NCBI GenBank assembly: GCA_027494055.1
Contig: JAOSJO010000012.1
Coordinates: 124,001-188,000, forward strand
Source of the DNA: Anaerolineae bacterium
GTDB lineage: Bacteria; Chloroflexota; Anaerolineae; Aggregatilineales; JAFGMM01
DNA length: 64,000 bases
Direction: 5' to 3'
A program made the position numbers and the translations under genes. Positions 129 to 26,055 of the stretch are shown here, one piece after another. The notes beneath the pieces are model-generated. The model worked only from the letters and a program-made list of their open reading frames with translations, was not told the DNA's origin and did no database searches. Numbering within the stretch: the stretch's first letter is position 1; each line of letters begins with the position of its first letter.

Positions 129-1394
129 TCAGATAAGGCGGAACGTCATCTGGCGGCCATCGAGGAAGATCACGCCGTCCTCCGTGAAAGCGGCGTCCTG
201 TTCGAGCGGGAACACCACTTCCTGACCGCCCCACTCCGGCACCGTGGACCTCACGTTCAACTCAACCGTGTAGGCCGTGTTGTAGCTCATGGCGACATCA
301 CCCCGGCCAGGGCAGCTTTCCTGCTCCCAGGGAAGGCCCATCAACGGGCCAGGCTCGTGCAGGAGGTGACCCAGCGAGTGGGAGTAAATCTTGGGCTTGG
401 GCAGCCCTTCTTCGCGCGCGCGCGCCAGGGCGCGGGCCAGGATTTCGTTGCCCGTGAGGCCCTTCTCCCACGTGCCGGTGAAGATCTCCTGCAGGCGGTT
501 CGCCAGCGCCATGCCGTCGCGCAGTCCCTTGGGCGCGTCGGTCTCGCCGGGCCGGAGCACGTAGGCGAGTTCCTGGTGGTCTGTGAGCAGGCGCAGGTAC
601 TCGACACCCACGTCACAGTGGAGCATGTCGCCGGGGCGAATGACCCGGTCGCCCTCGCCCCACCGCGCCTTGTTCTCCTCGCTCCGGTAGATCCCGAAGA
701 ACGGCGAGAAGGAGACGGGCAGGCCCAGATCGGTTGCAAGCTGCCAGTAGTGCCAGCGAACATCGTCGCAGGTGGTCACGCCGGGCGTGATGACCTCCCG
801 CGAGAAACAGACTTTGATGAGGTGGTGGGCAATCGCGCAGGCGTGCTGAAACAGGACCAACTCGGCGGGAATGAGCGTCTCGAGCCACCGGATCGCCACC
901 TTCTCTGCGGATACGAGGCGCGACGACAGCTCAGGTCCGAGGGTATCGACCAGCTTTGCCTTGAGGGAGGCCGTCAGGCCATCCGCCGCCCAGATGACGT
1001 CCGACTCGTTGATGCCGATGCGCTTGGGGTTCCTTGCTTCGACGATCTTGCGCAGGGTCGTCCACTGGTCGTCGTCGCTGTTCAGGTTCCAGGTGTCGGT
1101 CATCAGGCCGGCCATGCCGGTCAGCGAGACGTTCAGCCGCTCGATGCCGCGATCCGCCCCCTGATCGTAAAAGACAACGATCTGGAGAATGGGCGCCCAG
1201 CAATCCCAGGGGATCATGGTCTTGAAGACCGGGTCGTAGTTGTCTTCGTTGCAGACGATGATCCACATGTCGAAGCCGGTCTCGCGCATGACAGCCGGCA
1301 ACAGCGTGTCAAGGCGCTCGCGCAGCACTTCGTTTACCACGGCGGAACGCTGGCGCACGCCGAGGACACTGGGACCGGTGTAGTGGGTGGACAT
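129..1394 (-). CDS. M24-family metallopeptidase (Xaa-Pro aminopeptidase/creatinase-like)
   Basis: Intact 421-residue cytosolic protein with the two-domain layout of the M24 family: a creatinase-type N-terminal domain to about residue 170, then a pita-bread catalytic domain. Candidate metal ligands are visible: Asp in 'LHCDVG' (about 261), Asp in 'LLTDHQE' (about 272), His in 'SLGHLLHE' (about 343), Glu in 'YTVELNV' (about 378) and a C-terminal Glu near 392-398. Members hydrolyse Xaa-Pro bonds or act on creatine and other amidino or amine compounds. It sits between a LacI regulator and a cupin-like gene, beside methylamine-type genes, so a role in degrading a small nitrogenous compound is possible. 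The substrate cannot be read from sequence. Confidence 0.85.
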   Translation of the reverse strand: MSTHYTGPSVLGVRQRSAVVNEVLRERLDTLLPAVMRETGFDMWIIVCNEDNYDPVFKTMIPWDCWAPILQIVVFYDQGADRGIERLNVSLTGMAGLMTDTWNLNSDDDQWTTLRKIVEARNPKRIGINESDVIWAADGLTASLKAKLVDTLGPELSSRLVSAEKVAIRWLETLIPAELVLFQHACAIAHHLIKVCFSREVITPGVTTCDDVRWHYWQLATDLGLPVSFSPFFGIYRSEENKARWGEGDRVIRPGDMLHCDVGVEYLRLLTDHQELAYVLRPGETDAPKGLRDGMALANRLQEIFTGTWEKGLTGNEILARALARAREEGLPKPKIYSHSLGHLLHEPGPLMGLPWEQESCPGRGDVAMSYNTAYTVELNVRSTVPEWGGQEVVFPLEQDAAFTEDGVIFLDGRQMTFRLI

Positions 1395-1505: not shown

Positions 1506-2549
1506 TCAGGGAGACGGGAGCGGGTTCTTCGCGCCGCACGAGGCGCGCACCATAAGCTGCGTGCCCACCACTTCAGTCCGTGGGGGGAGGTCCGGCTGCT
1601 CGATGCGCGCCATCAGCAGCCGGGCCGCGCGATATCCGATCTCTTCGACCGCCTGCGCGACGGTCGTCAGCGGTGGGTTGAGCGACCGTGCCCAGGGCAT
1701 GTCGTCGAACCCCACGATGGCGATGTCGTCAGGGATGGAAATGCCCTGGTCGTGAATCGCGTTGAGCGCGCCGAGGGTCATCAGGTTGTTGGCGACAAAG
1801 AGCGCGGTAGGCGGGGTATCGCTCTGGAGCAGTTCGGTCGCCGCATTGTAGCCGCTCTCGCGGCGATAGTCCCCAAAGTGCACCAGGTCAGGCGATGCCG
1901 GCCACGAAGACGCCTGCATGGCCTCACGGTAACCCTCATACCGCTCGCGCCCGCTGGTGAGGTGGAGCGGCCCGCCGATATGGCCGATGCGCTGGTGTCC
2001 AAGGCGAAGCAGGTGTTCAGTCGCCGCGCGCGCACCGGCGACGTTGTCTGACAGGACCACGTCAACCCTGCCCGCGGTCATGCGGCGGTCAACCACAGTG
2101 ATCGGCAGGCCCTTCTCAGATAGCTCGGCGACCCGATCGACGTTCTCGCTGGTGGGCGTGATGACAAGCCCGTCTATCGCCTCGCTCTCCATCATGCTCA
2201 GGTAATTGAGTTCCTTTTTCCTGTCCGCATTGGTGTTGCTCATCAACACCGTGAACCCGCGCGCGAAGAACACCTCCTCGACACACGCCATCACGGTGTT
2301 GAGAAACGGGTTCGTGATGTCGGTGGCGATGATGCCGATCAGGCGGCTCTGCCTGGCGCGGAGGCGCTGGGCGACCCGGTGCGGCTCGTAGCCCAACTGC
2401 CTGACAGCGTCAAGCACCTTCTGACGCACTTCGTCACTGACATGCGGGTGGTTGCTGAGCACGCGCGAGACGGTTGCAATCGACACGCCCGCGAGTTTGG
2501 CGACTTCGGTGATCGTAGATGCGGACGCGTGCTGCCGACGTGGGGACAC
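1506..2549 (-). CDS. LacI-family transcriptional regulator
   Basis: 347 residues, full length for the family. The N-terminal helix-turn-helix is clear ('TITEVAKLAGVSIATVSRVL'), followed by the hinge helix 'HRVAQRLRARQSRLIG' and a periplasmic-binding-like effector domain starting 'IGIIATDITNPFLNTV'. The start chosen is the GTG at 2549, which leaves about ten residues ahead of the helix-turn-helix; no good ribosome site is visible. The promoter and a palindromic operator lie immediately upstream, so autoregulation is likely. Very similar operators precede the MttB gene and the 7.4 kb ABC operon, making these the probable targets. The effector is unknown; sugars are usual for the family. Confidence 0.93.
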   Translation of the reverse strand: MSPRRQHASASTITEVAKLAGVSIATVSRVLSNHPHVSDEVRQKVLDAVRQLGYEPHRVAQRLRARQSRLIGIIATDITNPFLNTVMACVEEVFFARGFTVLMSNTNADRKKELNYLSMMESEAIDGLVITPTSENVDRVAELSEKGLPITVVDRRMTAGRVDVVLSDNVAGARAATEHLLRLGHQRIGHIGGPLHLTSGRERYEGYREAMQASSWPASPDLVHFGDYRRESGYNAATELLQSDTPPTALFVANNLMTLGALNAIHDQGISIPDDIAIVGFDDMPWARSLNPPLTTVAQAVEEIGYRAARLLMARIEQPDLPPRTEVVGTQLMVRASCGAKNPLPSP

Positions 2550-2573: not shown

Positions 2574-2618
2574 TGAAAACGTTTACAGCATCTTACAATG
2601 ACTCTGCCTGGATGTCAA
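2574..2618 (-). promoter_or_regulatory. Promoter and LacI-type operator of the lacI-family gene
   Basis: On the minus strand a consensus -35 box TTGACA (2618-2613) is followed by a 17-base spacer and a -10 box TAAGAT (2595-2590). The imperfect palindrome TGAAAACGTTTACA (plus-strand 2574-2587) lies directly downstream of the -10 box, where a bound repressor would block initiation. The core matches the LacI/CcpA half-site style with a central CG. Confidence 0.75.
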
Positions 2619-2713
2619 TGGTTTGTCCAGATTGGACGCATTTTGACGTGAGGCCGTCTCACGCGGCGGCGCGAGTCAAACGGGCGAGTTGTTCGGCCAT
2701 CGCGCGCATCAGG

Positions 2714-3938
2714 CTACAGGATCGGATACCGCCCGGCCTCCCGAACCGTGTCCAGCGCGGCGACGATGTTCTCCGGCGGCACGTGATACTGAATGTTGTG
2801 CACCGCGCTCCAGATGAACCCACCGCCTGGGCCAAAGATACGCACACGGTCCGCGACATGCCGCCGGACGTCCTCCGGCGTGCCGAAGGGCAAGACCCGC
2901 TGCGTGTCGGCGCCGCCACCCCAGAACGTCAGCCGATCCCCAAAGGTATCCTTAAGCCACTGAGGGTCCATGCCCTTTGCCGAAGTCTGCACCGGGTTGA
3001 GGATGTCGATCCCCGCCCGGATCATCGGCTCAATCAGCTTCGGGATGCTGCCGCAGCAGTGTTTGGCAACCTTCCACGGCGTGTGTTGGTGGATCCAGTC
3101 GCACTGCTTCTTGTAGCACGGCTCGTATAGCGCCTCGAACAGAGCGGGGGAGAACATCTCGGCATTTTGCGTGCCGTAGTCGAACCCATCCATAAATAGG
3201 ATGTCAATATCCTCGCCGATGGCCTCCCAGTAGAGCGCCAGGTTATCCAGCGCGACCTCAGCGGCGAGATCGAAAAGCTCGCGCGTGTACGCCGGCTCAG
3301 TGACCTGCACGACCATCCACTCGGCAAGCGATCCCATCCACGGCGGACCCAGCACCGCCCCGCCCCAGTTTGTCAGGACCAGCGCCTTGTTGGTTGCCTC
3401 ACGGAGCGTGCGCGCCTTCTCTTGCAGGTGGCGCAGCGTCTCGTCTGTCAGCCTGCGCCAACCGGAACGCTTCAGCGCCTCGATTGATGGTGGCACATAG
3501 TCCGGGTTCCAGCTTGTGTCCGCCAGCACGTCGAAGTAGTAGCCATCCTTCGGCATCCGCGCGATCACCGGCTTGGTGGGGTCGCCGCCCTGGTGCATCA
3601 GCCAGTGGCCTTCGGGCGAAATCGCGACGTTGAAGTTGCCCGGCATGAGCACTTCGGTGCCGTCGAAGAGAGTCCAGGGTTTGTGATCGCCGCGATACGG
3701 CCCTGGCTCCACCGGGGAGCAAATCGAGGTCGAACCGCGCCACCAGGTCGAATGCGACCTCTCCAAGCATCTGGAACACGTCGTAGACCTTGACCGGGCC
3801 ATTCAGGCCCAGGTGTTGGCGGAGCCGCGCCAGCGCGCCGGCCATGATACCGGTGCTGATTGACCCGCCCAAGTCAATGGGTACCCGGTCTGGCTCTTCA
3901 TGGTTGATCGCTCTTAGCACACGCTCGCGGCTGTCCAT
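2714..3938 (-). CDS. Uroporphyrinogen decarboxylase-family protein (MtaA-like), one frameshift
   Basis: Two overlapping reading frames together give one protein of about 407 residues. The N-terminal part (ATG at 3938, GGAG upstream) starts 'MDSRERVLRAINHEEPDRVP', the standard opening of UroD-like proteins. After about 3717 the sequence continues in another frame with 'KHCCGSIPKLIEPMI' near the C terminus. In this subfamily, members often act as methylcobamide:thiol methyltransferases or related corrinoid partners rather than in haem synthesis. The gene is divergent from an MttB methyltransferase gene, which supports a role in methyl transfer. The break lies in a run reading 'accggggagc' and is probably an indel error. 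The true substrate is not known. Confidence 0.82.
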
Positions 3939-4141
3939 GACAACTCCGTTTCCCTCATCCGTGCCAGAATCCGCGAAAGATTGCAGCGGCTATCGCCCAT
4001 GACCGTTAGTGGCTTTGCAGAGCGCGTTGGCATGCACCTGGACAACTCATCCGGGCGGCGAGAGCAACCGCCGCCCTGCCCCACGTACCCGACGCACCTG
4101 CGCGAATCTTACCGCGTCCACATGTGAATGCGCCAAAAGCC

Positions 4142-4192
4142 AGAAAACGATTTCACGGAGACTTGCGCTTTCCGCCCGCAGTAGTATACAAT
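4142..4192 (+). promoter_or_regulatory. Promoter of mttB with LacI-type operator
   Basis: AGAAAACGATTTCA at 4142-4155 matches 12 of 14 positions of the operator at 7356-7369. It lies just upstream of a -35-like TTGCGC (4163-4168) and a -10-like TACAAT (4187-4192, 18-base spacer; TATACA at 4185 is an alternative). The region is shared with the divergent UroD-like gene, so both could be controlled. Confidence 0.55.
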
Positions 4193-4266
4193 ATCGTCCA
4201 TCCCTCACCGTCCGCAGCGTGAGAGACAGCTATCCACCCCCAGCGCCACATCGAGAAAGGCAGGGG

Positions 4267-5767
4267 ATGCCCGTGTCTTCCACGAACGTCGCACCGGCCG
4301 GCCTTTCGACCCATGCCTATCGCCCCCTTACCGAGGATGACATCAGGCGCATTCACGACGCCTCACTGACCGTGCTGGCGCGCACCGGGGTCCAGGTTCA
4401 GCCCTCCGAAGCGCGTGACATCTTCGCGCGCGCCGGCGCGCGGGTTGACGAGGCGAACAACCGCGTCTACATCCCGCGGAGCATGGTGGAGGACGCCCTC
4501 TCTCAGGCGTCCCACCGCTTCACCCTCGCCGGGCGCGACCCGGCTCACGACATGGAGATGGGCGGCGAGCGCGTCTACATGGGCACAGGCGGCGCGGCGA
4601 TCAAGGTGATGGACCTGGACGGGTCGGTTCGGGAGAGCCGGCTGGCGGATATCGCCCGCATCGGGCGGCTCGTTGACGCGCTTGATAACATCCACTTCTA
4701 TCTTAGGCCCGTCGTACCGCACGATGTGCCGAAGGCGCTCCTCGACGTCAACAAGACCTACACCGCGCTCGCCAATACCACCAAGCACGTCATGACCTCG
4801 GCCTACACGGTGCCCTCCGCGCGCGACGTGCTCGAACTGGCGGCGATGGTCGCGGGCGGCAAGGCAGCCTACGCACAGCGGCCAATCGTCTCATTCACGG
4901 CGTGCTGGACGGTCAGCCCGCTGCGCTACGCCCCAGAGACGGTGGAGGTGCTCATCGAGCTGGTGCGCCAGAACGCCCCGGTCGTCATCTCAAGCGCGCC
5001 ACAGAGCGGGGCTACTTCCCCGGCGGCGCTGGCCGGGACGCTCGTGCAGATCAACGCCGAGGAACTGAGCGGGATCGTGCTCTGCAACCTGGTGCGGCCC
5101 GGCGCGCGCATGCTCATGGGCTATGTGCCCTCGGTGGCCGACATGCGCACCGGCAACTTCGTCGGCGGCGGGCCGGAGTTTGCGCTGATGAACGCCGCCG
5201 CGACCCAGCTCGCCCACTTCTACAACCTCCCCATCTATAACTCGTCAGGGCTATCCGACAGCAAGCTCCCCGACATTCAGGCCGGGTACGAAAAGGGGAT
5301 CACGAGCGCCGCCGCGGCGCTGGCCGGCACGAACTTCGTGCACCATTCCGCCGGCTTCCTCGAAAGCATGTTGTGCGTCGCCTACGAGCAGTACGTGATC
5401 GACGACGACATCAACGGCAGCGTGATGCGCATGGTGCGCGGCATCGAGGTCACGGACGAGACGCTCTCCGTCGATGTGATCGATGAGGTCTGCCGGGGGA
5501 GCGGCCATTACCTGACCACCCAGCAGAGCCTCGACCTGATGCGCCGCGAGTACTACTACCCGCACACCGCCGACCGCGCCCGCCGCGACGAATGGCAGGC
5601 CAAAGGCGGCCTGGACATGCGCGCCCGCGCGCAGAGAGCGCGCTCGCGAAATCCTGACGACGCACCGGCCCGCACCCATCGACCCCGCTGTCGACGCCGC
5701 GATTCGCCGCCGGTTCGATATCGTGTTGCCGCCCGACCTCGCGGGCCGGCCTGACGCCGAACTGTGA
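4267..5767 (+). CDS. Trimethylamine methyltransferase-family protein (MttB-like, no pyrrolysine)
   Basis: The real start is probably the ATG at 4267, not the long open frame from 4009, because family similarity starts near 'YRPLTEDDIRRIHDASLTVL'. The protein is about 500 residues, the usual MttB size. It contains the barrel motifs 'GTGGAAIKVMDLDG', 'GARMLMGYVPSVADMRTG' and 'SSGLSDSKLPDIQAGYEKG'. No in-frame amber codon occurs, so it belongs to the non-pyrrolysine branch. Characterised members of that branch demethylate glycine betaine, carnitine or proline betaine onto a corrinoid protein. The open frame drifts after about 5630; shifting one base gives a natural end, 'RPAPIDPAVDAAIRRRFDIV', with stop at 5767. 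No corrinoid protein gene is visible in the window. Confidence 0.87.
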
Positions 5768-5822
5768 GGCGCGTGCGCGCCGGTGCATCTGCGCTTTCCC
5801 AGCTTGAGGAGGGGCGATTCTC

Positions 5823-7270
5823 ATGACCGAACAACTGCCCATACCCACGTTGCAGCCGGCCTTCCGCGTGCTGTCCGACGCGCAGATCAAGGCGGTGCAC
5901 TTCGCGGCGCTGGAGATACTGGAGAAGACCGGGATGCAGGTGCCTGACCCACAAGGCCGCGCCCTGTTGCTCGACGCCGGCGCGTGGGAGTCAGGGGGAC
6001 GCGTCAGGATACCTGAGCGGTTGGTCGCCGACGCGCTGGCACGTGCGCCCTCGCGCATCCCGATGTACAACCGTCTCGGCGCGCAGGTCATGCCCCTTGA
6101 GCTGGGCAAGGTGTTCTTTGGCTCCGGCTCCGACACCACCTTCACGCTGGACGTGGACACCGGCGAGCGCCGCCGCACCACGGCCCAGGACACGGAAGAC
6201 ATCGCGCGCCTGAGCGACGCGCTCGCCAACATCGACTTCATCATGTCGATGAGTAACCCTCCGATGTCCCGCCTGATGACCTCTACGTCCACGAGTTCAT
6301 CGGCATGATTCGCGGCTCGGTAAAGCCCAACGTATTCACGGCGAAGAACCGGGAGGACATGGAGGACATCTACTGCATCGCGGCGGCGGTGGCGGGCGGC
6401 GAGGACGGAACTGCGCGAAGCCCTTCCTCATGCACTATGCGGAGCCAATCTCGCCGCTGCTCATCATCGAGGAATCGCTGCAGAAGCACATCTTCTGCGC
6501 CGAAAAGGGCATCCCCGGCGCGTACATCCCCTCGCCCAACACCGGCGGCGGCGGGCCGGTCACGCTGGCCGGCGCGGTGGCGCTGGGCGTCGCGGAGTGC
6601 TTCGTGGGGCTGATTATCACGCAGCTTGTACGCCCCGGCGCGCCGTTTCTCTTTGGGATGAACACAGCGGCGCTGGACATGCGGAGCACGATCGTGAGCT
6701 ACGGCGCGCCGGAATGGAGCATGGGCATGGCAGCCACCGCCGACATGGCGCGCTTCTACAGCCTGCCGGTGTGGGGCGGCGCGGGGCCGTCAGATAGCAA
6801 GATCGTGGATGCGCAGTTTGGCATCGAGGCCACCTTCTCGATCATGAGCGCCTTCCTGAGCCGGACGACGCTTTGGTGCACGATGTCGGCTACATCGAGT
6901 ACGGATCAACCTCGTCGATGGAGGCGCTGGTCATCAGCGATGAGGTCATCCGCATGACGCGCCATCTGGCGCTGGGTGTGGAGGTCAGCGACAGAACGCT
7001 GGCGCTGGATGCGGTGGCGCGGATCCGCCCCGGCGGGGGCTTCCTGGCCGACGACCACACCCTGGAGAACGGGGGTGGGCGCAGTGGAAGCCGGACGTCA
7101 TCGACCGCAGCCGGCAGCAGCGCTGGGAGGCGCAGGGGCGCAAGGACATGTTTGCCCGCGCCAATGCCAGGGCGCGCGCGCTGCTTGCGGCGCACGAGGT
7201 CCCGCCGCTGCCCGATGAAGCCGAGCGCGTGATCGCGGACATCCTCCGCCGGCGCGCGCAGGCGGCGTAG
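5823..7270 (+). CDS. Second MttB-family methyltransferase, several frameshifts
   Basis: Begins with ATG at 5823 after GAGGAGGGGCG. It continues through at least four reading frames to a stop at 7270, giving about 480 residues, full length for the family. Recognisable segments in order: 'LSDAQIKAVHFAALEILEKT' (N-terminal), 'EFIGMIRGSVKPNVFTAK', 'GAYIPSPNTGGGGPVTLAG', 'DALVHDVGYIEYGSTSSMEA' and a basic C-terminal helix ending 'ADILRRRAQAA'. None of the breaks is an amber codon, so pyrrolysine does not explain them. It follows the first MttB gene by 55 bases and is likely in the same operon. It is either a decayed copy or an intact paralogue with consensus errors. The second reading fits because every segment remains well conserved. 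Confidence 0.8.
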
Positions 7271-7344
7271 CGGCATCCGGCGGCTCTGGCGCGCCCGTGT
7301 TGCAGGTAGAGAGACCGTCACATCAATGCTTATATTACGCTATC

Positions 7345-7373
7345 TAGACAGATTGTGAAAACGATTACATAAT
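7345..7373 (+). promoter_or_regulatory. Promoter with embedded LacI-type operator before the ABC operon
   Basis: TAGACA (7345-7350) and CATAAT (7368-7373) are separated by 17 bases, each five of six to consensus. The palindrome TGAAAACGATTACA (7356-7369) occupies the spacer, differing by one base from the operator in front of the lacI-family gene. A 95-base leader follows before the ATG at 7468. Confidence 0.72.
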
Positions 7374-7467: not shown

Positions 7468-9136
7468 ATGAAGCCCGATCCAAAGAGCGTCCGGGCACGA
7501 AACGAGCGGGTACGCGAAGCGCACTCTCAATTCACGCAGGGGCGGATCAGTCGGCGTGAATTCCTGCGCTTCTCATCGATGGTGGGCGGCGGCGCGCTGG
7601 CGCTGAGCCTGCTGTCACCGCTGGAGCGATACCAGCTTCGCCAGGCGAAGCGGCTGGCCGCGCAGGACATGACGCCCCAGCGTGGCGGCGTCCTCTCCAA
7701 CGCGCTCGGCATCGACACGAACCGCTTTGACGACCCCGCGCGCCTTAACCTCGTATTCCCGTCAAACTACGTCCGCCAGGTCTGCGACTACCTCGTCACG
7801 CTGGACACCGACCTGAACCTGCAACCAGGGCTGGCAACCGAGTGGTTGCCCTCAGAGGACGGCCTGACCTGGACGCTGAAGCTGCGCGAGGGCGTGACCT
7901 TCAACCATGGCAAGGTCTTCAATGCGGACGATGTCGTCTTCACGCTGAGCCGGCTGATCGACCCCTGAGACGTCCTCTGGCTTCCTGGGCGCTGCGCCGT
8001 TCATCGAGGGCATCGAGAAGGTCGATGACTACACTGTCAACATCGTCACCAACCGCGTCGCCGCCGACTTCATCTATACCCTGTTCCTGTACCAGGCCGC
8101 CGTGCTCCCCGCCGACTGGCCTGGAGACTTCTTCGCAAACCCCTGGGGGACCGGCCCCTTCACCATCTCGGAGTTCGTCCCCGGCGAGTTTATCCGCTTC
8201 CAGGCGCGCGACGATTACTGGGCCGTGGGTGCGGATGGGCAGCCACTGCCGTACCTGGATGGTGCCGAGTTCGTCAGCTTCCCCGACGAGCTTGCCCGCA
8301 TCAGCGCCCTCCAGGAAGGCGCGCTGCACCTTGCCCCCGCCAGCATCACGCTGATCGAGCAATATGAGGCGCTCGAAGGCTTCGACTTCGTCACGGTGCA
8401 GACCGGCAACCTGCACATCGTCGTGATGAAGTACAACGAGGAACCCTGGACGGATCCGAGGGTGCGCGAGGCGATGAAGCTGGTTGTGGACCGCCAGAAC
8501 TACATCGACACCCTCTACCTGGGTTACGCCATCGCCGCCGACGACCACCCGATTGCGCCGGGCATCTACCCCCTCGCGCCTGAGGACCAGACGCCGCGCC
8601 AGCAGGACTACGAGCAGGCGCGCGCCCTGCTCGCGGAGGCGGGCTATCCTGACGGCCTCGACCTGACCACCCTCTACATCGACCCCGGCAGCGACGGTGG
8701 GTTCGCCGAGAACTTCGCCGTCTTCATGGCGGCGCAGGCTGAACCGGCCGGCATCCGGCTCGACCTCCAACCCACGCCCGACTACTGGAGCATCTGGCTC
8801 GACGACTGGGGCCCGATGCACATCGGCATCTCGAACTGGGCGCAGAAGAACACGGCCAGCGAGATGCTGAACCTGGCCTATCGCACCGACGCGGTGTGGA
8901 ACGAGACGCACTGGAGCAACGAGACGTTCGACAACCTGCTCGCCGAGTTCGACCGCACGCTCGACCAGGAAGCGCGCCGCGGCCAGCTCAAGCAGTTGAC
9001 CGACATCCTGTCGGATGAGGGGCCAATCGTGATCCCAGGCTTCCGCCAGGACTTTGCGGTCAAAGACCAGTCGCTGCACTACAAGCTGCATCCTCAGGCC
9101 TATGTCTGGCTTGGCGACGCCTGGTTTGAGCAATAG
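7468..9136 (+). CDS. Peptide/nickel-type ABC substrate-binding protein (SBP_bac_5), one frameshift
   Basis: Start at ATG 7468 after AGAGGAGGAAG. The N terminus has a twin-arginine export signal, 'SRREFLRFSSMVGGGALALS', so the folded protein probably leaves by the Tat route. The mature part shows the family opening 'QPGLATEWLPSEDGLTWTLK' and a C-terminal 'FRQDFAVKDQSLHYKLHPQA'. The frame breaks near 7966 and resumes as 'ETSSGFLGAAPFIEGIEKVD' without loss of expected sequence. Total length is about 555 residues. It heads an operon of two permeases and a double ATPase and has its own repressor-overlapped promoter. Family members bind di- and oligopeptides, nickel, opines or glycosides; the nearby glycosidase and aminotransferase hint at an amino-sugar or opine-like ligand. 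Confidence 0.88.
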
Positions 9137-9180
9137 CCCGGTCCGGCTGCCCGATGGGCTGACGGCATGAGAGAGGAGAA

Positions 9181-9247
9181 GCGCGGCGGTTCCCACGGCG
9201 CTGCGTGAGAACCGCCGCGCGCCCTGTGGCCCGGACAAAGGGGCCAC
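9181..9247 (+). terminator. Tandem intercistronic hairpins after the binding-protein gene
   Basis: GCGCGGCGGTTC (9181-9192) pairs with GAACCGCCGCGC (9209-9220). A second stem, GTGGCCC/GGGCCAC, follows at 9226-9247. No T run follows, so this is more likely an mRNA-stabilising or attenuating structure between binding protein and permease than a full terminator. Confidence 0.6.
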
Positions 9248-9371
9248 CCAAGGTCGGTGGGCGCGGTCACGCGCCACGCTCCTTCCCCATCCCCCTTCCT
9301 TATGCTATGGTAGTGGGGGCCACAAGCAAGCGACTCAGCGGCGACGACGCTCCGACTCCTGAGGCGATGCC

Positions 9372-10320
9372 ATGATCCGATTTATCGCGCGCCGGGCTAC
9401 AACGCTGCTCATCACAATGCTGGTGCTTTCGATGGTGATCTTCGCCCTCTCCGAGGTGCTCCCCATCGAGCCGGCGCTCACCATCCTTGGGCGCGAATCC
9501 ACCCCCGGAAGCGCGCGCCGAGCTGAGCGAGCGCATGGGCCTCAACCGCCCGCTGCCCGAACGGTATGTGACCTGGCTGGTGCGCTTCGTGCAGGGCGAC
9601 TGGGGGCGCTCCTACCGGTTGGGCGCCGAGATTCAGCCGCTCGTCCTGCGCCGGCTGCTGAACTCGCTCGTCCTGGCAGGCCTGGCGCTCGTCATCATCA
9701 GCCCGATCTCGCTGGCGCTCGGCGTTCTGGCCGGCCTGTATCGCGCGCGGTGGCCTGACCGGGCGATCTCGGTGGGGAGCCTGCTCACGATCTCATTACC
9801 AGACTTCGTGGTCGGCTTGCTGTTGATAACGTTGTTCTCGTGGTGGCTGAAAGTGCTCCCCGCCGACAGCAGCCTGCGCGGCGCTGACCTCGACATCGCG
9901 CTGCACTGGCGCAAGCTCGTCCTCCCGGCGACGACGGCGGCGTTCGTGCTGGTGGGGTACATCACCCGCGTCACGCGCGTGAGCATGATCGAGGTCATGG
10001 ACTCGCCCTACATCCGCACGGCGATCTTGAAAGGGCTGCCCTACCGGACCGTGATCCTGCGCCACGCCCTGCGCAACGCGCTCATTGCGCCGATTGCGAT
10101 CATCACGACGCAGGTGGCGTGGCTGGTGGGCGGCTTGATCGTCATCGAACAGCTTTTCAACTACCCCGGCCTGGGCAGCCTGTTCGCCGACGCAGCGAAG
10201 GCCAACGACCTGCCCATGATCGAGGCGTCATCGATGATCGCGATCACGCTCATCGTGTTCTCACAGGTGGTCGCCGACGTACTCTATGCGGTGCTAAACC
10301 CGCGCATCCGGTTCAGCTAG
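9372..10320 (+). CDS. ABC transporter permease, DppB type, one frameshift
   Basis: Inner-membrane subunit of the peptide-type importer. The first helix 'TTLLITMLVLSMVIFALSEV' is read from ATG 9372. The frame shifts near 9500 into the long frame that carries 'MGLNRPLPERYVTWLVRFVQ' and the remaining helices. The cytoplasmic coupling loop ('RVTRVSMIEVMDSPYIRTAI') and the EAA-like region before 'VIEQLFNYPGLGSLF' are typical of DppB/OppB. The combined length of about 316 residues is normal. It is followed after 27 bases by the DppC-type partner. The break lies in a C/G-rich stretch and is probably an indel. Confidence 0.88.
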
Positions 10321-10347
10321 GCGTCACCGGCGGGAGAGACATTCAGC

Positions 10348-11234
10348 ATGGCCGAGGAACTCGATCAACCACAGCCAATTGCGGTGCAACTCCGGCCCGG
10401 GTCTCAGCCGCGGCTGACACGGCAACTGCGCGCCCTCCTGCGGAGTCCGACGGCGGTTGCAGGTCTCGTCATCCTCGGCTTCTGGATCGTCATGGCCGTC
10501 ATCGGGCCACAGATCGCCCCTATGGCGTCAACGAGATTGAGCAGGGCGCGGTCTGGAAGCCGCCTTCCGAAGAACACCTCTTCGGTACGGATAACCTGGG
10601 GCGCGACATCTTCTCGCGGCTCATCGTGGGCGCGCGCCTGATGATCGTCTTGCCCACAGCCTCGGTTGGGGCCGCCGTGCTCGTCGGCACCACGATAGGG
10701 TTGCTGTCTGGCTACCGGGGTGGGTGGGCAGACGAGATCATCATGCGCCTGATGGACGTGATGCTTGCCTTCCCGGTGCTGATGCTGTACCTGATGATTA
10801 TCGTCGCCTTCGGGGCGTCAGCCGTCAACGTGGTGCTGGCGATCACTATCGCAACCTCGCCGGCAGTCGCGCGCCTCGTCCGCGGGCTGGTGCTGGACAT
10901 CCGCAGCCGTGAATTCGTCGCTGCGGCCAAGATGCGCGGCGAACCGACGATGTACATCCTGTTCCGCGAAATCCTGCCGAATGCGTTCAACCCCATCCTC
11001 GTTGATGCCCTGGTCCGCATCGGCTATGCCGCGTTCGCGGTGGGGGCGTTGGGCTTCCTGGGGTTGGGCGTGCCGCCGCCCAACCCGGACTGGGGTCGCA
11101 TGGTCAGCGAGGCCCGAACCGCCCTGATCATCACGCCGACCGCGCCGCTGATCCCGGCGCTGGCGATTGCCTCGCTGGTGATCGCGTTCAACCTCCTGGC
11201 GGATGGGTTGTCGGAGGCGTCTCAAAGTGGATGA
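10348..11234 (+). CDS. ABC transporter permease, DppC type, one frameshift
   Basis: Start ATG 10348. The N-terminal cytoplasmic segment and first helix ('VAGLVILGFWIVMAVIGPQI') are in one frame. After about 10520 the protein continues in another frame with 'SEEHLFGTDNLGRDIFSRLI', the hallmark of DppC/OppC proteins. The coupling loop 'SREFVAAAKMRGEPTMYILF' and the closing '[14 protein letters not shown]' are intact. Total length is about 295 residues, as expected. It forms the transmembrane pair with the upstream DppB-type subunit, and its end overlaps the ATPase start. Confidence 0.88.
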
Positions 11235-13289
11235 ACAGCTCACCGTCCTTGAGGTTCGCGACCTCAACGTAAGCTACCGCAGCCGGCGCGGCGTCGCCCG
11301 CGCTGTGCGCGACCTGTCGTTCGCGATCCGCGACGGCGAGACGTATGGCCTGGTTGGCGAGTCGGGTTGCGGCAAGTCAACCGTCGCGCTGGCGATCATG
11401 CGCTACCTGCCGCCGAAGACCGAGACGAGCGGGGCCATCGTCTTCAAGGGCAGGGACCTGATGGACATGCCGGGGCATGAACTGCGACACCTGCGCGGCA
11501 ACCGGATTGCTATTGTCTACCAGGACCCCCAATCGTCGTTGAACCCTTCGCTGACCGTCGAGCGGCAGCTTGTCGAGGTCATCAGTGCCCACGAGCCAAC
11601 TACGCCCGATGCGGCGCGCGAGCGCATCCTCCAGATGCTCGAACTCGTGCGCATGCCCGACCCCCGCTACATCCTGGAGCGCTACCCGCACCAGTTGAGC
11701 GGGGGGGATGCAGCAGCGTGTGGTCATCGCGATGGCGCTGCTGCTGAATCCCGACCTGGTCATCATGGACGAGCCGACGACCGGCCTGGACGTGACCGTC
11801 GAGGCAGGCGTGCTGGACATCCTCGACGACCTGCGCCGCGAGTTCAAGATGGCGGTGCTTTATATCAGTCACAACCTCGGCGTGATCGCGCGCATCTGCG
11901 ACCGGGTCGGCGTGATGTACGCGGGTGAGATGATCGAACAGGCCTCCACGCACGACCTGTTTCACCGGCCCCACCATCCCTATACGCTCGGCTTGATGCA
12001 CTGCGTGCCGCGCAGAGGCGTTCGGTACGACACGGAGGCCCTGTACTCGATTCCGGGGCGCGTCCCGCCCCTGACCGCGCTCCCGCAGGGGTGTACGTTC
12101 GCCGCGCGCTGCGCCCTCGCCGAAGCGGCGTGCAGCGCCAGCAGACCCACGCTGACGCAGGTCGCCACCGACCACCTCGCGCGGTGTTTCCGCTGGCAGG
12201 CCGTGATCGAGCAGCCGGAGATGGTCACACAGACCGGCGCGCCGCCCGGCAAAGCAGCCGAAACGCGCACGGAGGCCCTGCTCAATGTGCGCCGGCTCAA
12301 GGTGTATTTCTCCCAGGCGCTTTCGGTGCTTGGGATCGGCAAGCAGCGGGACATCAAAGTCATCGACGATGTGAGCTTTGACCTCGCCTCCCAGCGCACC
12401 CTCGGCATTGTCGGCGAGAGCGGCTGCGGCAAGAGCACCATCGCGCGTGCGCTCGCCGGCCTTGTGCCGGTCACGGATGGCGAGATCGACTTCGGCGGCG
12501 AGGACTTCTCGGTCTCGATTGACGCGCGGAGCCGGGTCAAGCTCCAACTCCTGCAGATGGTCTTCCAGAACCCCGACTCGTCGTTGAACCCGCGCCACAC
12601 GGTCGAGGTCGCGCTGCGACGCCCGGTGCGCCGCTTCGAGGTGGTGCCGCGCGACCAGGAGGACGACTACATCCTCGCGCTGCTGTACTCGGTCAACCTG
12701 GATGAGACCTATATCGACCGCCTCCCCAAAGAGCTGAGCGGCGGGGGAGAAGCAGCGCGTCGCCATCGCCCGCGCCTTCGCGGGCGGGCCAAAGCTCGTG
12801 TTGTGCGACGAGCCGATCTCATCGCTTGACGTGTCGGTGCAGGCGGCGGTCATTAACCTGCTGCGCAAGCTTCAGCACGAGCGCGATGTCTCGCTGATCT
12901 TCATTGCCCACGACCTGAACGTCGTGCGCTATATCTCCGACGAGGTGGCGGTGATCTATCTGGGGCGCATCTGCGAAATTGGCCCCACCGAGGCGATCTT
13001 CAGCCCACCCTACCACCCCTATACCGAGGCGCTGATGTCCGCGATCCCCGTCATCGATCCCGACGTGGACATCACGCCCATCCGCCTGTCCGGGACCGTC
13101 CCCAGCCCGGCGAAGCCGCCCGCGGGATGTCGCTTCCACACCCGGTGCCCGCGCAAGGTCGGCCCGATCTGCGAGGCCGAAGACCCGCCCGCGCGGGAGA
13201 CAGGCGAGGGCCATACGATCTACTGCCACATCCCGCTGGATGAACTGCGCACCCTGCAAAGCGAACGCCTGGCCGAATCCGCCGATTAG
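11227..13289 (+). CDS. Fused double ABC ATPase of the peptide importer (DppD-DppF type), two frameshifts
   Basis: The GTG at 11227 has GGAGG upstream and overlaps the permease gene end. Two complete ATPase domains lie in tandem. Each has a Walker A 'GESGCGKST' and an oligopeptide-type C-terminal metal-site tail ('[20 protein letters not shown]' and '[20 protein letters not shown]'). Walker B '[11 protein letters not shown]' belongs to the first and '[11 protein letters not shown]' to the second. Both frame breaks fall exactly at the signature 'LSGG', where G runs of seven and five bases have one G too many. Removing one G in each restores 'LSGGMQQR' and 'LSGGEKQR'. The product of about 686 residues powers the upstream permeases, so no separate DppD and DppF genes are needed. 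Confidence 0.88.
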
Positions 13290-13309: not shown

Positions 13310-14002
13310 ATGCTGGCATTTGTTGACATCGAGCACAGGAAGGTCATCGACAACCCCGAAAAGGGGCCGCACCACCTGAAGGACTACTTTCAACGGGTGG
13401 ACAACATCGCCGCCGCCGTGGGGCTGCCCTGCACGCCGGTCCACTACCTGGACTTCAGCCTGGACTGGCTGCGCGCCAACGAAATCAAGGCGTTCTTCAT
13501 CAGCGGCAACACGCCCGACTGGGTCGAGTACGACTGGGACGAGTTCAAGCCGCTCCAGCAGGCCGTGACCTCCGGCGCGTACCCGGTCATGGGGTTCTGC
13601 GGCGGGCACCAGTTGATCGGGATGACGTTTGGCGCGGCGTGCGACGCGCTCGGCCCGCTCGCGCCCGGCGAACCGGACCCGATGCCCGAATACCACCCAG
13701 GGATGCGCAAGGAGAAGGGCTACCTGCCCTTCCAGCTGCACGCGCCAGATCACCCCCTGTTCGAGGGGTTCCCGCCCGGCGGGCCAGTCATCATGGAAAG
13801 CCACTATTGGGAGGTCAAGGCGCTCCCGGCGGGCTTTGCGCTCCTGGCCTCGACCAATTGGTGCCGGATTCAGGTGATGCAACACCGGGAACTGCCGATC
13901 TACTCGACGCAGGGGCACCCCGAAGCGTATACCGAAACCTACCCGGACGGGAGGCGCTTCATCCGCAACTTCGCGCGCGCGACCGGCGTCATCCGTGGCT
14001 GA
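13310..14002 (+). CDS. Class I glutamine amidotransferase-like protein
   Basis: Intact, 230 residues. The catalytic triad of the class I amidotransferase fold is visible: Cys97 in 'GFCGGHQLIG', His203 and Glu205 in 'STQGHPEAY'. Related proteins hydrolyse gamma-glutamyl linkages or supply ammonia. The gene begins 20 bases after the ABC ATPase gene and overlaps the next one by eight bases, so it belongs to the same catabolic operon. A role in removing a glutamyl group from the imported compound would fit the context, but this is inference. No membrane segment or signal peptide is present. Confidence 0.8.
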   Translation: MLAFVDIEHRKVIDNPEKGPHHLKDYFQRVDNIAAAVGLPCTPVHYLDFSLDWLRANEIKAFFISGNTPDWVEYDWDEFKPLQQAVTSGAYPVMGFCGGHQLIGMTFGAACDALGPLAPGEPDPMPEYHPGMRKEKGYLPFQLHAPDHPLFEGFPPGGPVIMESHYWEVKALPAGFALLASTNWCRIQVMQHRELPIYSTQGHPEAYTETYPDGRRFIRNFARATGVIRG

Positions 14003-15423
14003 GACCCGGTCCGCCACGTCGCCGCCGCCAGGGGCGCGGCCCGCTGTGATCCACGAGCAGGTCATCCGTTTTGCCCACGAACTGCGCTTCGCCGACCTGC
14101 CCGAAGCGGTGGTCCGGCAGGCGCAGCGCTGCCTGCTGGACCTGGCCGGCACCGCCGCCGGCGGCTGCATCACCGACGCCTCGCGCATCATACGCGATTA
14201 CGTGGCGCGCCATCATGGGTTCGCCGCCGGGGCCGGGGCGCGCCTCCTGCTTGACGGCCCGGCGGGTCAGCCCTGTCGGCGCGGCGCTGGCCGGCGGCGT
14301 CACCATCGACAGCCTGGACTGCCACGACGGCCACGTGCTGACCAAAGGGCACGCCGGCGTCGCCGTCTTCCCGGCGCTGATGGCGCTCATGGATGCGGAG
14401 CGCGCCGTCGATGGGCGCGAATTCCTGGCGGCGCTGGTGGTTGGTTACGAGATCGCGACCCGCGCGGGGATCGCGCTGCACGCCATGGCCTGCGACTACC
14501 ACAGCTCCGGCGCGTGGACGGCGCTGGCGTGCGCCGCGCTGGGCGCGCGGTTTCTGCGCCTCGACAGCCGGGCCACCTGGCACGCCCTGGGCATCGCGGA
14601 GTATCACGGGCCGCGCAGCCAGATCATGCGCTGCGTGGACCACCCCACGATGGTCAAGGACGGCGCGGGCTGGGGCGCGATGGCGGGCCTGAGCGCGGCG
14701 TACCTGGCCGCCGACGGCTTCACGGGCGCGCCGGCGCTCACGCTTGAGGACGGCGCAGTCGCCGCGACGTGGGCGGACGTGGGGGCGCGCTGGCGCATTC
14801 TGGAGCAGTACTTCAAGCCCTACCCCGTCTGCCGGTGGGCGCAGCCGGCCATCGAGGCGGCGCTCACGCTCCAGCAGGCCCATGGCGTCGCGGCTGCGGA
14901 CATCGCGCGCGTCGAGGTGGTCACGTTTCACCATGCGGTCAGGCTCGGCACGCGCGCCCCTTCGACCACCGAAGAGGCGCAGTATAGCCTGCCGTTTTCG
15001 GTCGCCGTCGCGCTGGTTCGGGGGCGCGTGGGCGCGGCGGAGGTCGGCCACGACGCGCTGCACGATGCGGCGGTGTTGCGGCTCGCCAACGGCATGGCCC
15101 TGGTCGAAAACGCCGGCTATAACGCGCAGTTCCCCGCCGAGCGCTGGGCGCACGTCGTGTTCGACCTGTGGGACGGCCGGCGGCTGACATCGCCGCCGAG
15201 GCCCGCGCGCGGTGGCGCGGACAACCCCTTGAGCGACGCCGAGCTGCGCGAGAAGTACTGGCTGCTCGCGGAGCCGCTGCTTGGCGCGCCGCGTGCGCAG
15301 CAGATCGAGGCCTGCATCGACCGCATCCCGGACGCGCCGGGCGACCTGGACACACTACGCCGGCTGCTGCTGAGTCCCGCCTCCCCGAAACATCATGAGC
15401 TTCATCAAGAGGAAAAGGCATGA
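13995..15423 (+). CDS. MmgE/PrpD-family protein, one frameshift
   Basis: The GTG at 13995 overlaps the amidotransferase gene. The N-terminal helical part ('AVVRQAQRCLLDLAGTAAGG') is in one frame. After about 14265 the sequence continues with 'GAALAGGVTIDSLDCHDGHV', the conserved PrpD region, then 'GYEIATRAGIALHAMACDYH' and a domain ending at 15423. Length is about 475 residues, typical. The family includes 2-methylcitrate dehydratase, cis-aconitate decarboxylase and iminodisuccinate epimerase. The last would fit an operon acting on amino-acid-like or opine-like substrates, but the sequence alone does not decide. The stop overlaps the GH4 start in an ATGA. Confidence 0.84.
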
Positions 15424-16766
15424 CCACGAAGATCAGCATCATCGGCGCGGGCAGCGCGGTCTTCTCGCTGCGGGTGACGATAGACCTGTGCCTGACGCCC
15501 AACCTGGAGGGCAGCACGATCAGCTTCATGGACATCGACCAGGGCCGGCTGGACGCCATCCACGGGCTGTGCCAGCGCTACGCGGACGAGATCGGCATCA
15601 CGCTCAACCTGGAGAAGACGACGAACCGGCGCGAGGCGCTGGAAGGCGCGGACTTCGTCATCAACACCGCGCTCGCCGCCGGCCATGAGCGCCTGCGCGC
15701 GGGGTGGGACATCGCCACAGCGCACGGCTACCGCCTCGGCGGGAGCCTGCACATCTTCCATGACGAGGCCTTCTGGATCAACTTCTACCAGTTCCGGCTC
15801 TTCGACGCGATCATGAAGGACATCCTGGAGGTCTGCCCGGAGGCGTGGTACATCCAGGTGAGCAACCCGGTGCTGGCCGGCATCACGTACCTGGGCCGGA
15901 AATACCCGGAGGCGAAGATCACCGGGCTGTGCCACGGCTTCGGCGGCGTGTACCGCATCGCCGACGTGCTGGGCCTGGACCGCGCCGGCCTGACGTTTCA
16001 GATACCGGGCGTGAATCACTTCGTCTGGCTGACGCACCTCTACCACCAGGGGGAGGACGTCATGCCCCAGTTCGACCGGTGGATTGAGGAAGAAGCGCCG
16101 CGCTACTGGGAGACCTGCGCGCCGAGCGACTATCTTGGGCCGGTGGCGGTGGACCTGTACCGACGCTTCGGCGTGTTCCCCATCGGCGACACGTGCAACC
16201 CCGGCGGCGGGTCGTGGCCGTACTGGTACCATGCCGACGCGGCGACCGAGAAACGGTGGCACGAGGACCCGATGGGCTGGTACAAAGGGTACTTCGCCTA
16301 CCTGGACCAGACCATCAGCAAGATCCGCCAGGCAGAGCAGGACGCCACGACGCAGGTCACGGAGGCGTTCCCGCCGGCGCTGTCAGGGGAGATCATGGTG
16401 CCGCTCGTCGAAGCGATTGCGTGCGATATCCCGCGCGTGCTGATCGCCAACATCCCCAACCACGGCGATTTTGTGCCCGGCGTCCCCAGGGACTTCGCGG
16501 TGGAGATCCCGACGCTGGTCAGCCGGCGCGGCATTCAGGGCGTCAAGACCGACGGCCTCCCGCGCCCCCTCACGTCGTACATCCTCCGAGACAGGGTGGC
16601 GCCCATCGAGGTCGAGCTGGAAGCCTACGAGAACGGGAGCCGGGAGGCACTGCTGCAGCTCATCATGATGGACCCGTACACCCGCACAGAGCAGCAGGCG
16701 CGGAGTCTGCTCGACGGCATCCTGGGCCTGCCCTATCACGAGGAAATGCGCCGGCACTACCGATAG
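15420..16766 (+). CDS. Glycoside hydrolase family 4 (alpha-galactosidase/alpha-glucosidase type)
   Basis: Intact, 448 residues. GH4 enzymes cleave glycosides by an NAD- and Mn-dependent oxidation-elimination route. The NAD site is 'IIGAGSAVFS' at residues 6-15. 'VSNPVLAG' (Asn149) and the metal ligands Cys171 ('LCHGFGG') and His200 ('GVNHFVW') are all present, so the enzyme should be active. The Cys-His-Gly triplet groups it with the alpha-galactosidase/alpha-glucuronidase side of the family rather than phospho-glycosidases. The start overlaps the PrpD stop (ATGA). It suggests that the compound brought in by the upstream ABC system carries a sugar or uronic acid. Confidence 0.9.
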   Translation: MTTKISIIGAGSAVFSLRVTIDLCLTPNLEGSTISFMDIDQGRLDAIHGLCQRYADEIGITLNLEKTTNRREALEGADFVINTALAAGHERLRAGWDIATAHGYRLGGSLHIFHDEAFWINFYQFRLFDAIMKDILEVCPEAWYIQVSNPVLAGITYLGRKYPEAKITGLCHGFGGVYRIADVLGLDRAGLTFQIPGVNHFVWLTHLYHQGEDVMPQFDRWIEEEAPRYWETCAPSDYLGPVAVDLYRRFGVFPIGDTCNPGGGSWPYWYHADAATEKRWHEDPMGWYKGYFAYLDQTISKIRQAEQDATTQVTEAFPPALSGEIMVPLVEAIACDIPRVLIANIPNHGDFVPGVPRDFAVEIPTLVSRRGIQGVKTDGLPRPLTSYILRDRVAPIEVELEAYENGSREALLQLIMMDPYTRTEQQARSLLDGILGLPYHEEMRRHYR

Positions 16767-16807
16767 GCGCGCACGCCATCGCGCCGCACACATAGAGGAG
16801 TCTCACC

Positions 16808-18134
16808 GTGGAGCCGCTTGCCCGCATCATGGTCGATTTCAAGCAGATGAAGGAATTCGCCAAAGACCCCTTCATCATCGAGCGCGGCCAGGGTATCTAC
16901 CTGTACGACATCAACGGCAAGGAATACATCGACGGCATTGCCGGCGTGTTTGTCGCCAGCGTGGGGCACGCCAACCCCGCTGTGCTGGAATCGATCACCA
17001 GCCAACTGGAGCGGCTGACGTTTGCGCCGCCCCTGGCGAGCACGAACCCGCCGGCGCTCCGGCTCGCGGAGCGCCTGAGCGCGCTCACGCCGCCGCAGTT
17101 CAACCTGGTGAAGTTCGCCAGCGGCGGGTCGGAAGCGGTGGAAAACGCGATCAAGATGGCGCTCCAGTATCACAAGCAGGCAGGCGGCCCAGGCCGGTAC
17201 AAGTTCATCACGACCTACGGCGCGTATCACGGGGGGACGCTGGGGGCCTTGAGCGCGAGCGGCGTTTCGGCGCGGCAGACGACCTTCGAGCCGCTGATGG
17301 GCAACTTCATCCACGTCCACCCGCCGAACTTCGCGCGCTGCCCGCTGCACCTCGAACCGGCGCAGTGCGCCGAAACCTGCGTGCTCCAGTTCGAGAATGT
17401 GATCGAGCGCGAGGGACCGGAGACGGTCGCCGGCGTGATTGTCGAGCCAGTCATGAACGTCGAGGGCCTCGTGTGGCCGCCGCCCAGCTATTTCCAGAAG
17501 CTGCGCGCGATCTGCGACCGGTATGGGGTGCTCCTGATCTATGACGAGGTCATCACCGGGTTTGGGCGCACGGGCACGCTCTTCTACTCAGAGCAGGCCG
17601 GCGCGTGGCCTGACCTGCTCTGCTGCGGCAAGGGGATGAGCGGCGGCTACATCCCGCTCGGCGCGACCATCATCGCGGACAGGGTGGCGGCGGCGTTCTG
17701 GGGCGAGGCCGAGGCGAACGTGCAGTACAACGCCGGCCACACCTTCGCCGGCAACCCACTCGCCTGCGCCGCCGGGCTTGCCGTGCTGGACTACATCGAG
17801 GCGCACCGGCTGCTGGAACGGGTGGCGCAGACCGGGCCGTACCTGGCCGCAAAGCTGGAGGCCCTGCGCGCGGACTGCCCCGCGATTGTCTCCGTGCGCG
17901 GGCTGGGGCTTTGGTGGGGCGTGGAATTCAGCCAGGACAACCCCACCGGCCAGCAGAAGGACCTGATCGGGCGTCGCGTCGAGCGGGCCGCGCGCGCGCA
18001 CGGGCTTGTGGTGCGCGGCGCGCCGGCCATGATCTCGTTCGGGCCGCCGCTCACCATCACCGAAGCAGAGATCGACGAGATGGTTCGCCGGCTGGCGCTG
18101 GCGCTCCAGGACGCGATTCCATACCGGGGGTTAG
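16808..18134 (+). CDS. Class III aminotransferase (aspartate aminotransferase superfamily)
   Basis: The GTG start at 16808 follows AGAGGAGTC. About 442 residues of class III PLP enzyme are present: 'SGGSEAVENAIKMA' for the phosphate site, Asp246 in 'LIYDEVITGFGRTG' and the PLP lysine Lys275 in 'CCGKGMSGGYIPLG'. Members transfer amino groups between omega-amino acids, ornithine, GABA or amines and a keto acid. The open frame runs on without a stop into the following SDR gene, giving a 604-residue apparent fusion. Removing one G from the GGGGG run at 18126-18130 creates a TAG at 18132-18134, and the SDR gene then has its own start and ribosome site. I therefore end this gene there. Confidence 0.86.
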
Positions 18135-18151
18135 GACAAAGGGGGACGGAC

Positions 18152-18933
18152 ATGAGACTCAAGGACCGGGTCGCGCTGGTCACGGGCGGCGCATCGGGCA
18201 TCGGGCGCGCCGCCGCGATACGGCTGGCGCAGGAGGGCGCGAAGGTCGCCATCGCCGACATCAACGGCGAGATGGGCGCGGAGGCGCTTCAGCTCGTGAA
18301 GGACCAGGGCGGCGAGGCGATCTTCATAAAGGCGGACGTCTCGCAAGTCGCGGAGACGGAGCGGATCGTCGCGGAGACGGTCGCCCGGTTTGGCCGGCTC
18401 GACATCCTGGTCAACAACGCCGCGGTCATGCTGGAGAAGACCGCCGTGGACACCTCAGAGGCGGAGTGGAACCGCATCACCGACACCAACCTGAAGGGGA
18501 CGTTCTTCTGCGCCAAGTATGCGATCATGCAGTTTCGCAGGCAGGGCACCGGCGGGAATATCGTGAACATGGCGTCGGTCAACAGCTTCTTCGCCGAGGG
18601 GGCATCGCCGCGTACTGCATGACGAAAGGCGGCATCGCCCAGCTCACGCGCGCGCTGGCGATGGACCACAGCGGCGAGGGCATCCGGGTCAACGCGATCT
18701 GCCCCGGATGGATCGAGACGCCGATGAACGCGAACTTCTTCGCGCTCGGCCCGCACATCCGCGAGCAGGCCGGCAGGCTGCACGCCATCGGGCGGACCGG
18801 CCAGCCGGAGGAGGTCGCCGACGCGGTGGTCTTCCTGGCGTCTGACGAGGCCTCTTTCATCACCGGGTCGATGCTGACCGTCGATGGCGGCTTTTCGGCG
18901 GGGCTTGCGCCCGCGCTGGGGATTGTGGTGTAG
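18152..18933 (+). CDS. Short-chain dehydrogenase/reductase, one frameshift
   Basis: ATG at 18152 with AAAGGGGGA upstream. It is a classical SDR of about 260 residues: NAD(P)-binding 'TGGASGIGRA', 'NNAAVM', catalytic Ser in 'NMASVNS' and the Tyr-Lys pair in 'AAYCMTKGG'. The acidic residue after beta-2 ('VAIADINGEM') favours NAD. The frame breaks near 18600, where 'gaggggg' lacks one G; beyond it the protein reads to 'MLTVDGGFSAGLAPALGIVV'. It is the last gene of the catabolic operon and probably oxidises or reduces an alcohol or sugar intermediate. The substrate is not determinable from sequence. Confidence 0.86.
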
Positions 18934-21963: not shown

Positions 21964-22120
21964 GCACTGTCTTTTCGCAAGGCCGGCGGCAGCTTGATGT
22001 ACGCGCCGTCCGGCGTGGGGCGGCGAGGAGCAAGCGGTCGAGGCGGTCACGGGGGAGAAGTGACACACGCCTTGCCCGGAGGCCAGGGTATGTAGACAGC
22101 TATGCCCCCCAAGGCGATGC

Positions 22121-23965: not shown

Positions 23966-23987
23966 GCTCCCTGTTCTTCCAGTGCGC

Positions 23988-24893: not shown

Positions 24894-24902
24894 GAGACTA
24901 CC

Positions 24903-25919: not shown

Positions 25920-25936
25920 GGTACGTTCCTGTGGAC

Positions 25937-25968
25937 GGTGAGCAACCCCCGTGCGGGGGTTGCTCACC
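25937..25968 (-). terminator. Perfect intercistronic hairpin between binding protein and permease
   Basis: GGTGAGCAACCCCC pairs perfectly with GGGGGTTGCTCACC around a four-base GTGC loop. There is no U tract. The position after a binding-protein gene and before its permease suits partial termination or 3' protection of the abundant binding-protein message. Confidence 0.75.
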
Positions 25969-26055
25969 CTGTGCTGGAGATGCTTACACCAACTTTACCA
26001 CAACCAGGCGCAAGACTCTAAATCCACATTCGCCTGGTCTTGACGTTTGCCTACG

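Follow-up and report, generated by a model that had tools for sequence, protein, structure and literature searches.

The question raised by this locus is whether three similar palindromes, lying before a lacI-family gene, a divergent uroD/mttB1 pair, and an ABC-importer/catabolic operon, are operators of a single regulator and, if so, which genes answer to it. The original prediction placed all three in one LacI regulon with one inducer. The window is the whole 64-kb stretch of DNA analyzed here (C12:124001-188000) from a genome of 5.71 Mb in 28 contigs. The relevant features, in window coordinates, are listed below.

129–1394, minus strand: gene for an M24-family metallopeptidase-like hydrolase (PF00557), following the co-oriented lacI gene after 111 bp.
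1506–2549, minus strand: lacI-family regulator gene, 347 aa (PF00356, 72 bits; PF13377, Peripla_BP_3, 139 bits; both over cut-off).
2574–2587, no strand: predicted operator 1, TGAAAACGTTTACA (reads TGTAAACGTTTTCA in the lacI orientation), at the lacI start site.
2590–2618, minus strand: lacI promoter-like sequence TTGACA-17-TAAGAT, ending 2 bp before operator 1.
2714–3938, minus strand: uroD-like gene (PF01208, URO-D family), weakly like MtaA/CmuA, frameshift-broken into two overlapping frames.
4142–4155, no strand: predicted operator 2, AGAAAACGATTTCA, in the divergent uroD/mttB1 intergenic region.
4267–5767, plus strand: mttB1, a non-pyrrolysine MttB-superfamily methyltransferase gene (PF06253, E = 1.8e-119), with a C-terminal frameshift near 5640.
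5823–7270, plus strand: mttB2, a second MttB-superfamily gene (PF06253 fragments), split by several frameshifts.
7345–7373, plus strand: ABC-operon promoter-like sequence TAGACA-17-CATAAT, with operator 3 between its boxes.
7356–7369, no strand: predicted operator 3, TGAAAACGATTACA, upstream of the ABC-importer/catabolic operon.
7468–13289, plus strand: family-5 (peptide/opine-type) ABC importer, comprising SBP, two permeases, and ATPase gene(s) (PF00496; homologues in L080/L174).
13310–18933, plus strand: catabolic genes for class-I GATase-like, MmgE/PrpD, GH4, class-III aminotransferase, and SDR proteins (Pfam over cut-off).

The three 14-mers were found exactly where, and exactly as, the original prediction had them. 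Compared with the palindromic form TGWAAWCGWTTWCA, the sites at 2574 and 7356 have no mismatch, and the single mismatch of the site at 4142 falls at an outer conserved position. When up to one mismatch was allowed, these were the sole matches in the window, and 100 dinucleotide shuffles yielded none. They also took the top three ranks in the window (25.5, 25.1, and 22.3 bits, with 7356 scoring best and 4142 third) under a weight matrix built from sites that precede LacI genes of other loci; the fourth-ranked site (13.7 bits) was 8.6 bits below the third. A genome-wide scan returned 15 sites for the TGWAAWCGWTTWCA pattern (≤1 mismatch) in 5.71 Mb, compared to none for the reversed control. Thus, by shuffles, reversed control, and matrix, the CG-centered even palindrome occurs in promoter regions above chance. 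Five of the 15 differ by no more than one base from TGAAAWCGTTTTCA, the form carried by the regulator's homologues. Three of these are the window operators; the others lie in the promoter of a paralogous lacI gene on C27 and at C23:500289, ca. 500 bp upstream of an apparent sugar-type ABC binding-protein gene (as read). With three of the five sites no more than 4.8 kb away from the regulator gene, the local signal is strong. The 14-mer of the prediction itself, at up to two mismatches, gave 21 matches in the genome vs. 4 for its reversed control, and this loose form is less exclusive than the palindromic pattern.

All three operators are intergenic, with centers ca. 31 bp before the lacI start codon, ca. 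118 bp before that of mttB1, and ca. 105 bp before that of SBP. Of the sigma-70-like promoters in the first 8 kb, the two with the highest, equal scores coincide with the operators at 2574 and 7356. The site at 4142 is found between two weaker divergent promoter-like sequences directed toward mttB1 and uroD (8 of 12 matches on either strand). Such placement would suit a repressor that blocks polymerase. Seven orthologues of the regulator (58–66% identity, in seven genomes of the same order) were recovered in an order-wide search; a sampled class-wide LacI search had missed them. A TTGACA-16/17-TANNNT-operator layout is repeated in 11 other lacI promoters, i.e. those of the seven orthologues and of four more distant genes (that on C27 of this genome and those of G034, G051, and G001), and each orthologous locus carries one strong operator in the stretches read. 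Because the layout recurs in orthologous and further lacI promoters, the site at 2574 is a firm prediction as an autoregulatory operator, its footprint being clear in relatives. Two other LacI proteins were rejected as orthologues: that of Anaerolineales SJ819 (L080), when compared with this genome's own LacI set, belongs to another subfamily, and that of G017 is closer to the C27 paralogue (63.6% vs. 53.5%).

The reading that best accommodates these observations, with a probability of roughly 0.72, is a local LacI-type repressor regulon that includes lacI, the ABC/catabolic operon, and, less surely, the uroD and mttB genes. Support differs by target: it is firm at lacI, good at the ABC operon, and weaker at uroD/mttB. 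The regulator, when free of ligand, would bind the three CG-centered palindromes. Binding at its own start site would control lacI and the downstream M24 hydrolase gene; a second bound site would fall within the promoter that drives the ABC-importer/GATase/MmgE/GH4/aminotransferase/SDR operon, and a third, less surely, in the divergent uroD/mttB1-mttB2 region. The bound regulator would block RNA polymerase, and a small molecule derived from the imported substrate would release it. We infer that all three predicted operators are read by this LacI and not by a paralogue, that it acts by repression rather than activation, and what the nature of the ligand may be. As a kind, this would be a well-supported but ordinary local LacI regulon with an unusual target set.

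Since it follows lacI by 111 bp on the same strand, the M24 gene is probably co-transcribed with lacI and under the lacI operator. M24 copies (68–69% identical) stand behind four of the seven orthologous lacI genes, and a family-5 type ABC importer stands behind six of the seven; the loci were read over flanks of ca. 10 kb, one contig being 5.8 kb long. On that contig, the seventh locus, GH2 and GH127 genes diverge from lacI across the operator, and a GH116 gene occurs near lacI in G086. Homologues of mttB, GH4, and GATase genes were not seen in these stretches. From this gene content, the conserved partners of the regulator appear to be the M24 hydrolase and the family-5 (peptide-type) importer. 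Of the targets named in the original prediction, the importer type recurs with orthologous lacI, and no GH4 copy was seen in the stretches read; the prediction had omitted the M24 gene. Among the closest arrangements are four loci of the same order that read lacI, family-5 ABC importer, esterase, M24 (L192, L195, L196, and L197) and share with the window the LacI (64–66%), the promoter-operator, the M24 protein (68–69%), and the importer type. They differ in having one operator and one operon headed by lacI, in importers that are only ca. 25–33% identical to the reference importers, and in lacking mttB, GH4, and GATase genes over the stretch read. For the M24 protein, no match among solved structures was obtained, and a class-wide search with the SBP at the chosen cut-off returned the window itself only.

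The genes beside operator 2 are the least secure part of the regulon. The uroD-like protein scores far below the cut-offs of the MtaA and CmuA models. The MTTB domain of mttB1 (PF06253, 399 bits) is an open frame with neither an in-frame amber codon nor a stop, and its score against TIGR02369 (trimethylamine methyltransferase MttB proper; 443 bits) is below the equivalog cut-off of 525. It aligns over 440 residues with glycine betaine methyltransferase and other non-pyrrolysine MttB-superfamily enzymes (2qne, 9yce; PMC8604678) and, like those enzymes, has no in-frame stop in the domain. Compared with systems of that type, the cluster is devoid of a corrinoid protein gene; the genome has only two PF02607 matches, both on other contigs. 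The best corrinoid-protein candidate, at C26:81569, looks MttC-like and is the sole such protein seen in the genome. There, the MttC-like frame runs into a DUF1638 frame (L176 5558-6934), and the fusion may be a frameshift artefact. An intact mttB2 homologue adjoins MttB1 in L064. In this assembly, frameshifts were noted in the window at 2714–3938, 5640–7270, 7965, and 9520–9551, affecting uroD, mttB1, mttB2, SBP, and one permease gene. Elsewhere in the genome, a gene that reads as galT-like (L006 1544-2630, another contig) is likewise split by a frameshift. Those in uroD, mttB1, mttB2, and SBP could mean gene decay; uncorrected sequencing indels are the likelier cause.

MttB1 homologues also adjoin a family-5 ABC importer, often with MmgE/PrpD, at L089, L090, L091, L092, L099, L101, L104, and L108. 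These loci belong to Desulfobacterota and other phyla and present a recurring importer-methyltransferase unit; by its recurrence in several Desulfobacterota loci, the link between MttB and importer is supported beyond this genome.

The alternative that survives best, doubtful as it is, confines the regulon to lacI-M24 and the ABC/catabolic operon and treats 4142 as a weak or chance match, with uroD and the mttB genes outside. The outer-position mismatch of this site and its weak promoter-like neighbors fit that alternative, as does the survey of 22 related mttB1 loci: none had a good operator in the available upstream bases, the nearest operator-like sequence being one 2-mismatch match without the central CG, and in three relatives a PucR-type regulator gene is found near mttB1 instead. 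Against it, 4142 is the third-best site of the window by a wide margin (22.3 vs. 13.7 bits) and occupies a divergent promoter region, 118 bp before mttB1. The single LacI regulon as first proposed is partly supported: clustering, promoter positions, and the lacI footprint fit a local regulon, and the mttB1 operator is not conserved at the 22 loci. Because neither the orthologous lacI loci nor the related mttB1 loci have such an operator/gene pairing, inclusion of the MttB genes and this catabolic operon in the regulon would, on present evidence, be lineage-specific.

A second alternative, ranked below the first and unlikely, is that the C27 paralogue (52% identical to the regulator) or another LacI also reads the sites, which would then be part of a broader sugar-responsive network instead of answering to one inducer. 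The same operator type stands just upstream of most LacI genes inspected in the class, often paired; the motif is a generic LacI-family operator, and a match alone does not name the regulator. Cross-talk is possible, because the motif is generic and 25 LacI-family regulators of this genome pass the Pfam cut-off. The C27 gene's own operator, TGAAATCGTTTTCA, is equally good, lies within 1–2 bases of all three window sites, and recurs at C23:500289; moreover, on C28, where none of the LacI matches falls, sites precede sugar-type ABC genes. What opposes this alternative is that, in other genomes, both subfamilies keep their own autoregulatory operator beside their own transporter genes, which fits separate local roles. 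The C28 sites are three LacI-type operators at C28:7127, 15462, and 15642 (L067, L175) that precede two sugar-type ABC operons; they would be targets of a regulator encoded elsewhere.

A chance resemblance of A/T-rich promoter DNA to a LacI palindrome is very improbable: promoters do have a higher A+T content than other parts of this G+C-rich genome, but the shuffles and the reversed pattern in 5.71 Mb gave no match, the lacI operator is conserved, and the 11-promoter footprint already refutes chance for 2574. The confidence placed in the local repressor regulon is tempered by the number of LacI genes, the shared motif, the equal C27 operator, the lack of mttB1 conservation, the one good operator and missing mttB, GH4, and GATase genes in the stretches read at orthologous lacI loci, and the frameshifts.

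In a comparative study of LacI regulons (PMC4052901), operators had a central CG, autoregulation was frequent, and sites were mostly 30–140 bp before the start codon; 96% of the studied groups with an assigned pathway control carbohydrate metabolism. The predicted regulon resembles those in its even CG-centered palindrome, autoregulation, 30–140-bp spacing, and ABC-importer and catabolic targets, and differs from them in having MttB-type methyltransferases, a peptide-type importer, and an M24 hydrolase among its targets. A similar cluster exists in SJ819 (L080/L174), where MttB1 (63%), MmgE, GATase, and a family-5 importer (41–57%) are found beside a lacI gene with a double operator of the same type. 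This LacI is 55% identical to a C23 paralogue and 40% to the window regulator; because it is nearer another subfamily, LacI control in SJ819 appears to be parallel rather than inherited. The SJ819 cluster has GH116, a Zn-dehydrogenase, a DegT aminotransferase, and sarcosine oxidase, whereas the window has GH4, a class-III aminotransferase, and M24. The stretch read (L174 1-20000, which is G513 C109:74000-93999) holds MttB1, MmgE, LacI with the double operator, ADH, DegT aminotransferase, GATase, the importer, GH116, and two sarcosine-oxidase-like subunits.

The nearest solved relatives of the LacI effector domain are RbsR, PurR, and CcpA; they sense different ligands, and the comparison points to no inducer. 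The glycosylated or methylated amine originally suggested is a guess that fits the glycosidase and methyltransferase genes; it is possible because glycosidases occur near orthologous lacI genes and sarcosine oxidase genes occur in one similar cluster. A more elaborate scenario, which we consider speculative, is that a probably sugar-sensing LacI repressor took over corrinoid methyltransferases. A single inducer would then switch the import of one glycosylated methylated amine together with its deglycosylation and demethylation, and in the SJ819 relative another LacI subfamily would have acquired this role on its own.

Genes of the MttB superfamily are widespread in bacterial genomes, and for most of them the substrate is not known. 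Examples are given in PMC8604678. If regulator and operator tie two such genes to an importer, a glycosidase, and an M24 hydrolase, fewer substrates would have to be considered, and binding assays with the regulator offer a simple route to the inducer. No open-access paper uniting LacI, MttB, and methyltransferase was found, subscription journals being outside the scope of that search.

Other genes near the regulon were also noted. In the translation, a gene for a YD-repeat (RHS-like) protein (18860-20344, minus strand) stands tail to tail with the SDR gene that ends the catabolic operon. A second peptide-type ABC importer gene set (22047-27123, minus strand) is without a LacI-type site. Outside the window, some 6 kb ahead of its first position, lies a further LacI gene (C12:117905) with an operator of a different type (CGCAATCGTTTACG); it precedes a sugar-type ABC operon whose end is close to the start of the window.
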